From Streptomyces asoensis (GTDB lineage: Bacteria > Actinomycetota > Actinomycetes > Streptomycetales > Streptomycetaceae), in the NCBI RefSeq assembly GCF_013085465.1, contig NZ_CP049838.1:3100001-3164000 (forward strand): a stretch of DNA of 64,000 nucleotides, read 5' to 3'. How positions within the stretch are numbered: position 1 is the stretch's first letter; each line of letters starts with the position of its first letter. Positions 38,417-43,784 of this stretch are shown in pieces. The notes beneath the pieces were generated by a model. That model saw nothing but the letters and a program-made list of their open reading frames with translations, had not been told where the DNA came from and made no database searches. A program made the position numbers and the translations under genes.

Positions 38417-39268
38417 ATGGACGACAACGCTGGTAGAGGCAGGGCGGCTTGGCCATGGCGGGTCATGGCCACTGCGGCCGCGGCAGCCGTGGTGCTGGGC
38501 GGCTGCGGTTCCGGGGACGACGACAAGGCGGCCGAGCCGAGCCCTTCGGCATCCTCCCGGTCCGCGACTCCCACCGCATCCGGCTCGCCCTCGTCCTCCT
38601 CCTCGGCGGGTGGCGACGCGACGTCGCTGACGCCGTTCCAGGCGGACCCCGCTCAGGTGCCGAAGACGAAGCCGCAGGCCGAGGCGCTGGCAGCGGCCGT
38701 CGCGCTGAAACCGGAGGCGTGGGGCGCGGACTTCCGGGCCCAGCAGCCGGCCGCGAGCGCCCCCGGCACCGCCGCCGTCCTCGACGAACAGTGCCGGTGG
38801 GAGCGCCGGTCCCTCCCCCAGGGCGTCCTGGCCTCGCTGTCGCGCTACAGCGAGCTTCCCGGCACCACGGGCAAGGGCGAGATCAAGGTGACCGCGGCGG
38901 TCACCGTGCACGCCACGGTGCTCGACGCCGACGACCAGCTGTCCACCACGCTGGAGGAGCCGTTGCGCTGCCGCGAGCAGCAGGTCCGCACCGATGAGCG
39001 GATATCCGGGCTCATGTCGACCGGCACTCCCTACGGCCAGGGCGAAAACACCTACTCCGACGACCAGGTCGTGGAAATCGGCTCCTACCTCACCGGGACG
39101 GCCAAGCAGTCGTACTTCTGGTTCGTCACCCGGCTCGGCACGGTGACCCTGGCGGTGTCGGTGAAGGGCGCCAAGGGTTACACCGACAGCGAGCTGAACC
39201 GGTTCGGGTCGCAGGCCACCAGCACGATGCTCAGCCGCGTGGAGTTCGAGCTCGGAGGGAAGAACTGA
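38417..39268 (+). CDS. Lipoprotein of unknown function, first gene of the receptor-kinase operon
   Basis: 283 residues. Signal sequence with lipobox VLGGC near residue 31, then a Ser/Pro/Thr/Ala linker (about 40-70) and a mature domain of about 210 residues with two Cys (DEQCRWERR and LRCREQQ) that may form a disulfide. No domain is recognised. Its stop overlaps the kinase start as TGATG, so it is translated with the kinase and probably works at the outer membrane face beside the kinase sensor domains. Confidence 0.82.
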   Translation: MDDNAGRGRAAWPWRVMATAAAAAVVLGGCGSGDDDKAAEPSPSASSRSATPTASGSPSSSSSAGGDATSLTPFQADPAQVPKTKPQAEALAAAVALKPEAWGADFRAQQPAASAPGTAAVLDEQCRWERRSLPQGVLASLSRYSELPGTTGKGEIKVTAAVTVHATVLDADDQLSTTLEEPLRCREQQVRTDERISGLMSTGTPYGQGENTYSDDQVVEIGSYLTGTAKQSYFWFVTRLGTVTLAVSVKGAKGYTDSELNRFGSQATSTMLSRVEFELGGKN

Positions 39269-41559
39269 TGGAGGCGCTGCGTTCGTCGGATCCCGCGCGC
39301 ATCGCGGGACATCGTCTGCTCGGACGGCTCGGTGCCGGCGGCATGGGCGTGGTGTACCTGGCCCGCACACCCGGCGGAGCGCTGGTGGCGCTGAAGGTGC
39401 TGCTCGCCGAATACGCCGAGGAGCCGGACTTCAGGGAGCGGTTCCGCCGGGAGGTCGAGGTCGCCCGGCGGGTCGACAGTCCCTGGGCGGTACCGCTGGT
39501 GGACGCCGACCCGGACGCCGAGGCGCCCTGGCTGACGACGGCGTTCGTCCCGGCACCATCGCTGGGCGAGGCAGTGGCCGCGTACGGGCCCCTGGCCGAG
39601 CACGGGGTACGGCTGCTCGGCGCCCGTCTGGCCGAGGCTCTGGGCGCGGTGCACGGGGTCGGTCTGGTCCACCGGGACCTCAAGCCGGGCAACGTGCTGA
39701 TCGCCCACGACGGACCCCGGCTCATCGACTTCGGCATAGCCCGGGCGCCGCAGGACACGGCGCTCACGGCGACCGGTCTGGTGGTCGGCACTCCCGGCTA
39801 TCTGTCGCCCGAGCAGGCCCAGGACGGCGGCGACGGCATCGGCCCGGCGAGCGACGTGTTCGCCCTCGGGTGTGTCCTGGCGTTCGCGACGACCGGCCGG
39901 GCGCCGTTCGGCAGCGGACCGGTGGACGCCCTGCTGTACCGGGCCGTGCACGATCCGGCGGACCTCGACGGGGTGCCCCCGGAGCTGCTGACGGTGCTGG
40001 AGCGCTGCCTGGAGAAGGACCCGGCCCGGCGGCCGGACGCCGGGGAGCTGGTTCGAGAACTGGCGGCCGACGGCGCTCCGCGGGACGCGGAGACGGCCGA
40101 GTGGCTGCCCGAGCCGGTGACCCGGCTGATCGCCGAGCGATCGGCCGCCGCGCTCGCGCTGCCGGACATCGAGCACACGCAGGTGCCGTCGGCCGCGTCG
40201 GCCACCTCGGCGCCGACGGATTCCGGGCACGCCGAATCCGGGCCTGCGGACTCCGTGCCGGCCGGCTCGGACCCGGCTGATGCCGACCCGGCGGCCTCCG
40301 ATACGCACGGCACGTCTGCGTCGCCGGAGCCGCAGGACGCCCGGCCGGCCGGCCGACGCCGCTTCCTCCTGCTCGCCGGCGGGGCCTTGGCGCTGGCGGC
40401 GGGCGCGGGCGGAACCTGGTGGGCGGTCGCCCGGGACGGCGACTCGGGAGACGACAGCCCTGCCGCCGCCGCGTCCTCGGGGCGCCCGGTGCACACCGTC
40501 GCGCTGCACGGTGACCTCAGCGGCCCGCAGCGGGAGACGGGCCGGGCCCAGGAGCGCGGACTGCGGCTGGCCGTCGCGGAGTTCAACGCGCGCGGCGACG
40601 CGCCCTTCACGGTGAAGGTCAGGGCCGTCGACGACGGGGGCGATCCGGCGGCCTCGGCCCGGCTCGCCGCGGAACTCACGGACGACCCGGCGGTCCTCGC
40701 CGTGGTCGGCCCGACCACCGACGCCACGGCGCAGTCGGCGCTCGCGAAGTACGATGCCGGGCTGCTGCCGGTCGTCTGCGTGTCCCCCGGCGCGACCGCC
40801 CTCTCCATCCAGGGTTTCCGCTCGTTCCTGCACGCACGGCTGCCCGACGCGGTACTGCCCGTCTACGTAAGCAACTACCTGCGCGGCACGGCGCGATCGC
40901 GCAAGATCGGCATCGTCGTCGACCGCCCGGCCGGAAACTACGGGACGGATCTGAGCACTTCCCTCAGCAATGTGCTCGGCAACGCACAGCAGCCGTCCGT
41001 ACCGGAGGTGGTCAGCGCGATGCGCCGCGACTTCGGCAGCGCGGTGGACGCGGTGCTCTCCGCCGGCGCCGACTCCGTGTTCTTCGCCGGCCTGCCCGAC
41101 CGGGGAGCGTTGATCGCCTCGACGCTGCGCGAACGCGCCTTCCAGGGGGCTCGCATGTCCGGCCCCGCACTGCTCGACGGCCGCTTCCTGACGGAGGCTC
41201 AAGAAGCCGCCGAGGGCTGGGTGGTGGTGGCGCCGGTCATCGACGCGACCCGCAAGCCCGAGGCGAAGAAGTTCGCCGCCGCCTACCGCGAGCGCTTCAA
41301 GGAGGCGCCGCCCCGGTACGCGGCGGAGGCCTACGACGTGACCGGGATGCTGCTGAAGGCGCTGTCCGGGCTGCCCGCGAAGAGCCGCACCCGGGCGAAT
41401 CTGCTCGCGGCCGTGCGGGCCGGCAAGTACGAGGGCATCACCAAGACGTTCGCCTTCCAGAAGACCGGCATGATGGTCATCGACGGCACCGGTGGCTTCC
41501 TCTGGCGGGTCGAGCAGGGCGACTTCGTGTACGGCGGCCCCGCGCCGATCAGCGTCTGA
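39268..41559 (+). CDS. Receptor Ser/Thr kinase with amino-acid-binding-protein-like sensor (1)
   Basis: 763 residues. A Hanks-type kinase occupies about 10-270: GAGGMGVVYLAR loop, catalytic Lys in VALKVLL, HRDLKPGN at His135, DFGIAR and SPEQAQ. A Ser/Pro/Ala linker leads to RRRFLLLAGG (Arg363-365), which begins the only membrane span. The C-terminal 350 residues look like a type I periplasmic binding protein of the branched-chain amino acid family (HGDLSGPQRETGRAQ, VVGPTTDATAQS). The kinase lies inside, the sensor outside. RRRFL resembles a twin-arginine motif. TGATG overlaps link it to both neighbours. Confidence 0.93.
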   Translation: MEALRSSDPARIAGHRLLGRLGAGGMGVVYLARTPGGALVALKVLLAEYAEEPDFRERFRREVEVARRVDSPWAVPLVDADPDAEAPWLTTAFVPAPSLGEAVAAYGPLAEHGVRLLGARLAEALGAVHGVGLVHRDLKPGNVLIAHDGPRLIDFGIARAPQDTALTATGLVVGTPGYLSPEQAQDGGDGIGPASDVFALGCVLAFATTGRAPFGSGPVDALLYRAVHDPADLDGVPPELLTVLERCLEKDPARRPDAGELVRELAADGAPRDAETAEWLPEPVTRLIAERSAAALALPDIEHTQVPSAASATSAPTDSGHAESGPADSVPAGSDPADADPAASDTHGTSASPEPQDARPAGRRRFLLLAGGALALAAGAGGTWWAVARDGDSGDDSPAAAASSGRPVHTVALHGDLSGPQRETGRAQERGLRLAVAEFNARGDAPFTVKVRAVDDGGDPAASARLAAELTDDPAVLAVVGPTTDATAQSALAKYDAGLLPVVCVSPGATALSIQGFRSFLHARLPDAVLPVYVSNYLRGTARSRKIGIVVDRPAGNYGTDLSTSLSNVLGNAQQPSVPEVVSAMRRDFGSAVDAVLSAGADSVFFAGLPDRGALIASTLRERAFQGARMSGPALLDGRFLTEAQEAAEGWVVVAPVIDATRKPEAKKFAAAYRERFKEAPPRYAAEAYDVTGMLLKALSGLPAKSRTRANLLAAVRAGKYEGITKTFAFQKTGMMVIDGTGGFLWRVEQGDFVYGGPAPISV

Positions 41560-43784
41560 TGGAGCCGCTGCGCACCGGCGACCCGTCCCGGATCGGCCGC
41601 TACCGTCTGCTGCGGCGGCTGGGCGCCGGCGGCATGGGCGTGGTCTTCCTGGCCCGTGCGCCGGGCGGAGCGATCGCCGCGGTGAAGACGGTCCGGTCCT
41701 CGTACGCCGACGAGACGGGCTTCCGGACCCGTTTCCGCCGCGAGATCGAAGCCGCCCGGCAGGTGCGCAGCCCGTGGGTGGTCCCGTTGCTGGACGCGGA
41801 CGCCGACGCGGAGACACCGTGGCTGGCGACCTCGTACGTACCGGGACCCTCGCTCGCCGAGACGGTGGACACCTTCGGTCCTCTGTCGCTCGCCTCCGTG
41901 CGGATGCTGGGCGTGCGGCTCGCCGAGGCGCTCGAGACGGTGCACGGGGCCGGTCTCGTGCACCGCGACGTGAAGCCGGGGAACGTCCTGCTGGCCCCGG
42001 ACGGGCCACGGCTCATCGACTTCGGTATCGCCCGCGCGCCGGAGGCCACGGCGCTCACCTCCAGCGGCGTGATCGTCGGCTCGCCCGGCTTCCTGTCCCC
42101 GGAGCAGGCGCGGGCCCGGGGCGGCGAGATCGGCCCGCCGAGTGACGTGTTCTCGCTGGGGTGCGTGCTCGCGTTCGCCGCGACCGGCGTCCGGCCGTTC
42201 GGCGGCGGCGGGGCGGCCGGCATGCTGCTGCGCACGGTCTACGAGGAACCGGATCCGACGGCGGTCCCGGACAGCCTGGCGCCTCTCCTGCGAGCCTGTC
42301 TGGCCAAGGATCCGACCGCCCGTCCCACCGTCGCCCACCTGCGCCGGACACTCGACGAAGAGGTGCCGGAAACCGACTCCGCCGAGCGGTCGGACTGGCT
42401 GTCCGCGCCGGTCACCCGGCTGATCAACGACCGGGCCGCCGCCGTGCTCACCCTGGGCACGATCGAGCCGACCCAGGTGTCCGCGTCCGCGAGCACAGTG
42501 CCGACGGTGTCGCCCGAGGCCGCGACGCTGACGGCCGTCACCGCTGCCCCGCCCCCCGCCCGCGCCATCGGCCGCCGCGGCTTCCTGCGCCTGGGCTCGA
42601 CGGCCGGGGTCCTGGCGGCAGGCGGTGGCGGTGCCTGGTGGTGGAGCACCCGCCCGGATCCGGGGACGACGCCTCCGGCCGGAGCGAACCCGCGCCCCGC
42701 ACTGGTCGTGGCGTTCCACGGCGATCTGACCGGGCCCCGGAAGGAGACCGGGAACGCCCAGCTGAGCGGCGCTCGACTGGCCGTCGAGCAGCTCAACGCC
42801 AAGAGCGCGCACCCGTTCCGGCTGAAGCTGCGGACGTACGACGACGGCGGTGACCCGGAACGGGCCGACGAACTGGCCGTCCGGCTGGCGAAGGACGCGG
42901 ACGTGCTCGCCGTGCTGGGACCCACCACCGATGCCTGCTTCCTCTCGAGCGAGGTCACCTACACCAAGGCGACGATGCCCGTCGTGTCCGTGTCGGTGGG
43001 CGCCGACACCCGGAGCAGGACGATCGGAGAGAACGAGTTCCACCACTCCCATGCGGCGCTGCGCGTCGCTGACCCACTCCTCGCCGCCCCTTGTAGCCGC
43101 TACCTCGGCAACCACGTCGACGCGCAGAAGGTGTTCCTCATGGACGACCGGGCCCAGGGCGACTTCGCCTGGTCCCTGTGCGACCAGACCCAGCAGGCGC
43201 TGCGGCAGGCCGGCCGGGACGCCACGGTGACCCGTGTCGCCGCCGGAAAGATCGACTACGCGTCGCTCGCTACCGCAGTGATGTCCGCCCGCGCGGACGC
43301 GGTCGTCTTCACCGGCGACGCGGCCCGGGCCGCCGGACTCGCGTCGGCACTGAGCACCGCCCGGTTCACCGGCACCCGGATGGCGACGGAACGCGCCTTC
43401 GACCCACGGTTCCTCACGTCGGCCGGCGCGGCCGCGACCGACTGGGTCTTCGCCACCTCCTTCACCGACCCGACGGCCCGCCCGACCGCCCGCGCCTTCA
43501 CCAAGGCCTACCGGGCCCGCTTCGGCACCGACCCCGGCTGGTACGCGGCGGAGGCCTACGACGCCGTGATGTTCCTGGCCCAGGCCTGCGTCAAGGACGG
43601 CTCGGCACTGACGGAGCGGGGCGCGATCGCCCGCCGGATGCCCGAGATCACGTACGCCGGCATCACCCGGACCGTCAAGTACGAGCAGGGGTACGGCTAC
43701 AACCACGAAGCGATGTTCCTGTTCCGGGCCGCGGACGGCGCGTTCCGCTACCTGGGGCAGTACCAGGAGGCGGCGGTCTCCTGA
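41559..43784 (+). CDS. Receptor Ser/Thr kinase with amino-acid-binding-protein-like sensor (2)
   Basis: 741 residues, a tandem paralogue of the upstream gene with the same architecture and the catalytic HRDVKPGN at the same His135. Lys in IAAVKTV, DFGIAR and the activation segment are intact. Arg339-Arg340 start RRGFLRLG, a textbook twin-arginine motif, directly before the single membrane span. The external domain (FHGDLTGPRKETGNAQ, LGPTTDACFL) again resembles LivJ-type binding proteins. The sensor domains differ more than the kinases, suggesting different ligands. A hairpin follows the stop. Confidence 0.93.
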   Translation: MEPLRTGDPSRIGRYRLLRRLGAGGMGVVFLARAPGGAIAAVKTVRSSYADETGFRTRFRREIEAARQVRSPWVVPLLDADADAETPWLATSYVPGPSLAETVDTFGPLSLASVRMLGVRLAEALETVHGAGLVHRDVKPGNVLLAPDGPRLIDFGIARAPEATALTSSGVIVGSPGFLSPEQARARGGEIGPPSDVFSLGCVLAFAATGVRPFGGGGAAGMLLRTVYEEPDPTAVPDSLAPLLRACLAKDPTARPTVAHLRRTLDEEVPETDSAERSDWLSAPVTRLINDRAAAVLTLGTIEPTQVSASASTVPTVSPEAATLTAVTAAPPPARAIGRRGFLRLGSTAGVLAAGGGGAWWWSTRPDPGTTPPAGANPRPALVVAFHGDLTGPRKETGNAQLSGARLAVEQLNAKSAHPFRLKLRTYDDGGDPERADELAVRLAKDADVLAVLGPTTDACFLSSEVTYTKATMPVVSVSVGADTRSRTIGENEFHHSHAALRVADPLLAAPCSRYLGNHVDAQKVFLMDDRAQGDFAWSLCDQTQQALRQAGRDATVTRVAAGKIDYASLATAVMSARADAVVFTGDAARAAGLASALSTARFTGTRMATERAFDPRFLTSAGAAATDWVFATSFTDPTARPTARAFTKAYRARFGTDPGWYAAEAYDAVMFLAQACVKDGSALTERGAIARRMPEITYAGITRTVKYEQGYGYNHEAMFLFRAADGAFRYLGQYQEAAVS

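Follow-up and report, generated by a model that had tools for sequence, protein, structure and literature searches.

Tandem receptor-like kinases of Streptomyces asoensis with a conserved candidate for an internal twin-arginine signal

A 64,000-nucleotide stretch of the Streptomyces asoensis genome (NCBI RefSeq assembly GCF_013085465.1, contig NZ_CP049838.1, positions 3,100,001 to 3,164,000 of the forward strand), referred to below as the window, holds two adjacent genes for large Hanks-type kinases, here called kinase 1 and kinase 2, and directly upstream of them a gene for a predicted lipoprotein (Table 1). Both kinases match Pfam Pkinase in their N-terminal part (E-values 1.6e-35 and 1.5e-38, respectively), with the Hanks motifs intact (GAGGMG at residue 22, VALK/AAVK at 40, HRD at 135, DFG at 154), and Pfam Peripla_BP_6 in their C-terminal part (2.1e-34 and 5.5e-36), and the architecture given in a preliminary description of the locus, namely a Hanks kinase joined through one membrane span to a LivJ-like ligand-binding domain, is borne out by the open reading frames (ORFs) and by these matches. 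By sequence, both ectodomains resemble LivJ, LivK and Leu-Ile-Val-binding proteins, and the best Foldseek matches of the kinase 2 model (3td9, 4gnr, 3hut) have a LivK/LivJ-like fold. Between kinase domain and ectodomain, a Pro/Ala-rich linker leads to a twin-arginine (RR) motif and then to a single weak hydrophobic stretch, and it is this junction, a candidate internal signal for the twin-arginine translocation (Tat) pathway, that is the theme of the present report.

Table 1. Features of the locus, in positions of the window (aa, amino acids; dG, predicted free energy of membrane insertion)
Feature	Position	Strand	Basis or remark
Gene upstream of kinase 1 for a predicted lipoprotein (283 aa as called)	38417..39268	+	ORF; lipobox VLGGC; translation may begin further in
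Kinase 1, 763 aa: Hanks kinase, linker, internal Tat-like signal, span, LivJ-like domain	39268..41559	+	ORF, Pfam
Kinase domain of kinase 1, residues 18-263	39319..40056	+	GAGGMG, VALK, HRDLKPGN, DFG
RRRFLLLAGG of kinase 1, residues 363-372, twin-arginine motif	40354..40383	+	RR in 121/121
Weak span of kinase 1, residues 365-387	40360..40428	+	predicted dG -0.72
Arg389 of kinase 1, just past span, possible Sec-avoidance charge	40432..40434	+	R in 118/121
Peripla_BP_6 (LivJ-like) domain of kinase 1	40495..41469	+	Pfam, sequence likeness
Kinase 2, 741 aa, layout as kinase 1	41559..43784	+	ORF, Pfam
Kinase domain of kinase 2, residues 15-261	41601..42341	+	AAVK, HRDVKPGN, DFG
RRGFLRLG of kinase 2, residues 339-346, twin-arginine motif	42573..42596	+	RR in 120/120
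Weak Gly-rich span of kinase 2, residues 342-364, ends WWWST	42582..42650	+	predicted dG +0.78
Arg365 of kinase 2, just past span, possible Sec-avoidance charge	42651..42653	+	R in 117/120
Peripla_BP_6 (LivJ-like) domain of kinase 2	42708..43739	+	Pfam, sequence likeness, model fold

The two motifs stand directly before the span, at exactly the residues first described. Arginine pairs near kinase spans are common (see below), so that conservation of the pair, rather than its presence, is the test. Within each family the pair is aligned in every member (121 for kinase 1, 120 for kinase 2). Three protein searches and the loci of related genomes together furnished an alignment of 316 proteins, 10 of them fragments short of the site and omitted, with 14 stand-alone substrate-binding proteins (SBPs) kept apart. 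The remaining 306 are all distinct, 16 of them, mostly partial sequences, lacking the kinase HRD before the site; their ectodomains are pairwise identical down to 24% (median 37%) and fall by single linkage at 50% identity into 17 clusters, the two large ones having 142 and 122 members. None of the 306 lacks the pair, whereas homologues without it would, by the preliminary description, have counted against an internal Tat signal: the pair lies in the aligned column in 286, is shifted by one residue in 20, and falls inside a ten-residue window in all. The stricter pattern RRxPhiPhi (Phi, a hydrophobic residue) is found in 305, P0284 being the single relative without it and still keeping RR, as do P0249 and P0281 (two of these three sequences are cut in the kinase). 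As a control, counted by the same rule, we took a PASTA kinase of the same genome, located at G000:C1:2929601, which has PRRGVLAL before its span, together with 29 orthologues (one family, 68-86% identity); here RR is aligned in 21 of 30, present in the window in 24, and part of RRxPhiPhi in 14, with Pro at +3 in 9. In the kinase-2 family (n=120), R339 and R340 are invariant whereas positions -1 to -13 vary, and further residues of the junction are at or near fixation (F342 in 108, L343 in 119, G346 in 120). Judged from these alignments, conservation of the arginine pair exceeds chance.

Span strength was expressed as dG by the dgpred function, whose parameters were checked on one span, the last one (TMD3, transmembrane domain 3) of the Rieske protein of the same genome, for which we obtained +0.72, the values in print for TMD3 of the Streptomyces coelicolor Rieske protein being +0.614/0.714 (passage of PMC5449189). 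On this scale the kinase-2 family has a median of +0.62, with only 9 of 120 members below 0, the PASTA control a median of -1.91, and two Tat-like lipoprotein signals of the same genome reach +1.42 and +1.85; the kinase 2 span thus graded appears Rieske-like, and that of kinase 1 intermediate. No stretch of either protein scored better than the span when the whole sequence was scanned, the top one before residue 335, inside the kinase domain, reaching +1.28 in kinase 1 and +1.06 in kinase 2, the latter close to the span itself. The kinase 2 span ends in three tryptophans (W360-W362, 42636-42644), each present in 120 of 120 relatives, that of kinase 1 in two (121 of 121), and FecR of Escherichia coli, to which we return below, has a similarly placed Trp. 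Both spans are followed by a conserved arginine, and positive charge past the span is reported in the same source to have lowered Sec (general secretory pathway) export of Rieske fusions (PMC5449189).

We propose, with a probability of about three in four, that both proteins are single-span receptor serine/threonine kinases whose junction acts as an internal Tat signal anchor that is not cleaved. The kinase would fold in the cytoplasm and stay inside; the weak span, rich in Gly and Ala and followed by an Arg, would make a poor Sec anchor and be passed over by Sec; TatBC would recognise the RRxFL motif; Tat would move the C-terminal LivJ-like domain out, the span remaining as membrane anchor; and ligand binding outside would then control the kinase. 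Such a protein would work in the manner of E. coli FecR and of the last span of the actinobacterial Rieske protein, the part kept inside being a kinase. A gene for TatC is present (G000:C1:2280147-2280836, E-value 5.5e-66). An internal Tat signal had been suggested for both kinases from the outset, and the suggestion holds up unevenly: the pair is conserved in both and the kinase 2 span is weak with an Arg after it, so that kinase 2 appears the stronger case, and kinase 1 is less clear because its span is more hydrophobic. Taken together, the two proteins look to us a strong and conserved candidate for Tat-inserted receptor kinases.

Several observations weigh against this proposal, beginning with the dG scale and its single check. 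Spans of the kinase-1 family have a greater hydrophobicity (median -0.49, below 0 in 116/121) and overlap with weaker Sec-like spans; moreover, a Sec-type lipoprotein signal of the same genome is also weak (+0.66), so weak dG alone is no marker of Tat. The pair occurs from 14 residues before to 4 residues into the span in 9 of 14 strong-span kinases of this genome, and likewise near the span in 15 of 21 related strong-span kinases (dG below -1), by which RR as sufficient proof of Tat is ruled out. The 306 relatives share kinship, their readable names being nearly all Streptomyces, and are not independent. Finally, among the 14 nearest stand-alone SBPs an RR near the start occurs in three and the strict RRxPhiPhi in none, so the SBP fold does not itself need Tat. 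The frequency of arginine pairs near strong spans and the kinase-1 dG values favour an ordinary type II signal anchor of the Sec/signal recognition particle route, whose arginines would serve as a positive-inside signal and be conserved for a signalling or topological role of the junction; so do some beta-propeller kinases, L031, L063 and L073 among them, with Sec-like spans lacking the strict motif, and the nearest stand-alone SBPs, which by eye are mostly of Sec type. Topology, however, needs charge and not RRxPhiPhi, and the motif that drifts in the PASTA control (14/30) is kept in 305/306 here; the kinase-2 spans, if they had to act as the only signal anchor, would be weak ones, and the far-side Arg in 117/120 kinase-2 relatives contradicts the positive-inside rule. 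We regard a Sec anchor as unlikely, although it is the alternative to be taken most seriously.

Much less probable is that the weak Gly-rich span is kept for regulated intramembrane proteolysis, with RR serving that process or anchoring and no involvement of Tat. The span resembles that of FecR in its glycine content, low hydrophobicity and far-end Trp, and PMC8144685 has RseP cleaving FecR, yet the register of RRxPhiPhi and the Arg past the span would be left unexplained, and the two processes are compatible, FecR having been reported for both. Slighter still is the prospect that the ectodomain stays inside, in a kinase confined to the cytoplasm that senses through an SBP-like domain and whose hydrophobic stretch lacks the strength for insertion. 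Peripla_BP_6 domains are normally extracytoplasmic, and such a protein would have no obvious need to keep RR, Trp and Arg in its linker and span. In favour of a cytoplasmic protein, the kinase 2 span barely outscores the stretch in its kinase domain, and a related propeller kinase (L035) has no span; the AlphaFold model of kinase 2, with a predicted local distance difference test (pLDDT) score below 50 at residues 301-375 and helix only at 359-362, points the same way, but low pLDDT is uninformative about membranes and hence about the span. Chance placement of Arg-rich sequence ahead of a hydrophobic stretch, for which a G+C content of 0.74 here and linkers with seven Arg against no Lys (kinase 1 residues 251-362, kinase 2 residues 251-338) might speak, is negligible given RRxPhiPhi in 305/306 at ectodomain identities down to 24% against 14/30 in the control.

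Other kinases suggest that the internal Tat signal anchor proposed for kinases 1 and 2 may extend beyond them. Of 29 span-bearing kinases scored in the same genome, with a weak span defined by a dG of -1.0 or more, motif and weak span coincide in three of the six whose ectodomain has at least 340 residues (kinases 1 and 2 and the pyrroloquinoline quinone-type (PQQ) kinase L027) and in one of 23 with a smaller one (L025, with peptidoglycan-binding and ricin-type lectin domains). With relatives added, the figures are 27/34 and 4/57, in a sample biased by the choice of relatives for likeness to kinase 2, 15 of the 27 being the fusions themselves; 11 spanless kinases, and in addition those with masked sequence, were omitted, and one of the four (L005) is a truncated version of a fusion. 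The PQQ kinase L027 (G000:C1:1775539-1781064) has GRRALLAVTAGAALVGG before its ectodomain and is itself a candidate for an internal Tat signal. In related genera, beta-propeller (PQQ-type) kinases L074, L098, L069 and their kin carry SRRALF, TRRKFL or GRRRML directly before a weak span, and one beta-propeller family has RR in 12/12 aligned rows (11 distinct proteins), shifted by one residue in L211. Five propeller kinases (L031, L041, L063, L073, L111) have a span without the strict motif and L035 has none, so that ectodomain type alone is not decisive. We think it possible, at somewhat less than even odds, that the receptor kinases of Actinobacteria whose ectodomains are large and globular, of SBP or beta-propeller type, include a class inserted by Tat only, whose sensor crosses the membrane ready-folded. 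In such a class the kinase would act as a cytoplasmic cap that makes a Sec step unnecessary, the sensor might already be loaded with a cytoplasmic ligand, and Tat proofreading would select the receptors that reach the surface.

Inheritance of the signal from a Tat-exported stand-alone SBP is unsupported as a rule, with RR near the start in 3/14. Individual cases do occur: a stand-alone Peripla_BP_6 protein of this genome (L141, G000:C1:9382647-9386669) has a Tat-like lipoprotein signal (SRRGLLAG...SAC; SRRGLLAGISAVGASAALSAC), and the depositors' names of two related solved SBPs, 4ey3 and 3i45, mention a Tat signal. A Tat-like lipoprotein signal, TRRTVLLATGGAAAALATGC, is also seen in a small Rieske-domain protein (L156, G000:C1:2460800-2463600). 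The best NCBIfam model for both kinases is AfsK, its alignment extending in kinase 1 to residue 379 and in kinase 2 to residue 323; identity with AfsK is ruled out by scores of 296.7 and 281.8 bits against the NF053615 cut-off of 1300, and AfsK carries PQQ repeats where the two kinases carry the SBP domain. The PQQ kinase L027 is likewise excluded as AfsK by the NCBIfam cut-off.

Gene order places both kinases in a wider context. Stop and start codons overlap as TGATG at both junctions, between lipoprotein and kinase 1 and between kinase 1 and kinase 2, and translation of the three genes is, on this arrangement, probably coupled. Among nine neighbourhoods, picked for containing a kinase-SBP fusion, a lipoprotein homologue lies beside the kinases in eight (missing at L158) and two tandem fusions occur in eight (a single fusion at L162); on this comparison, lipoprotein-kinase-kinase is a conserved three-gene unit (38417-43784). 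The upstream protein, for which Pfam and NCBIfam gave no match, may be a co-receptor. The genome examined comprises 10,044,300 bases in one contig, and Streptomyces accounts for nearly all named close relatives of the two kinases. Among 396 genomes drawn from the same phylum, for which scoring of the two best candidates per genome sets a lower bound, ectodomain-covering matches were found in at least 6 of the 12 same-genus genomes, and none appeared among the matches listed for the other 384; a nearer set of 21 genomes gave at least 6/13 within the genus and 0/8 outside it, again among the matches listed.

If the internal Tat signal anchor is real, the Tat pathway sets the sensory reach of a Streptomyces kinase family, and tat mutants would be signalling mutants besides export mutants. 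To our knowledge, very few proteins combine an internal Tat signal with the absence of any preceding membrane span; a large conserved family would join them and raise the question of how Tat copes with a signal preceded by a folded kinase domain. Signal-peptide predictors examine N-termini, so proteins with internal signals are easily overlooked, and the simple rule of RRxPhiPhi plus a weak span after a cytoplasmic domain would pick up candidates.

The closest known parallel is FecR of E. coli, in which, as in kinases 1 and 2, RR directly precedes a span ending near Trp; in FecR this span is weak and Gly-rich, the junction span of fecR from K-12 MG1655 having a dG of +1.45. The cytoplasmic part of FecR is a short regulator domain and not a kinase, and its exported part is no periplasmic binding protein. 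FecR is described as a single-pass, N-in/C-out regulator of a sigma factor in a passage of PMC8144685, its translocation by a unique Tat-dependent mechanism is announced in the title of Passmore et al. (2020), and it is mentioned in PMC11533796. A wholly new receptor topology, as the preliminary description had it, is too strong a claim and is ruled out by this reported single-span precedent. Internal Tat signals are established for the actinobacterial Rieske protein, as that description rightly stated, and for a few polytopic families (passages of PMC5449189). Like the kinases, the Rieske proteins (QcrA/Sco2149) and other dual Sec-Tat proteins have an internal RR and positive charge after the last span, which is weak, as in kinase 2; in the Rieske protein, however, two spans inserted by Sec come first and a cofactor domain is present, whereas kinases 1 and 2 lack any preceding span and contain no known cofactor domain. 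The screen of Tooke et al. (2017), according to its text, looked for an even number of spans before RR, with cofactor domains then picked by hand; the word "kinase" does not occur in its main text, and kinases could sit in its online list. The fusion of a kinase with a binding protein, noted earlier as known in Streptomyces, was indeed listed in 2005 for S. coelicolor (gi 21223285), alongside a Nostoc kinase with an ANF receptor domain, in a paper whose main text contains neither "twin" nor "signal peptide" and whose passages on the fusions give no export route (PMC1262709). The NCBI family name, bifunctional kinase/ABC transporter substrate-binding protein, records the same fusion, and the matches listed from the open-licence PMC literature include no Tat-exported serine/threonine receptor kinase. 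Internal Tat signals, the FecR layout and the kinase-SBP fusion were thus already known, and what appears to be new, against the literature matches listed, is a probable connection of receptor kinases with Tat.

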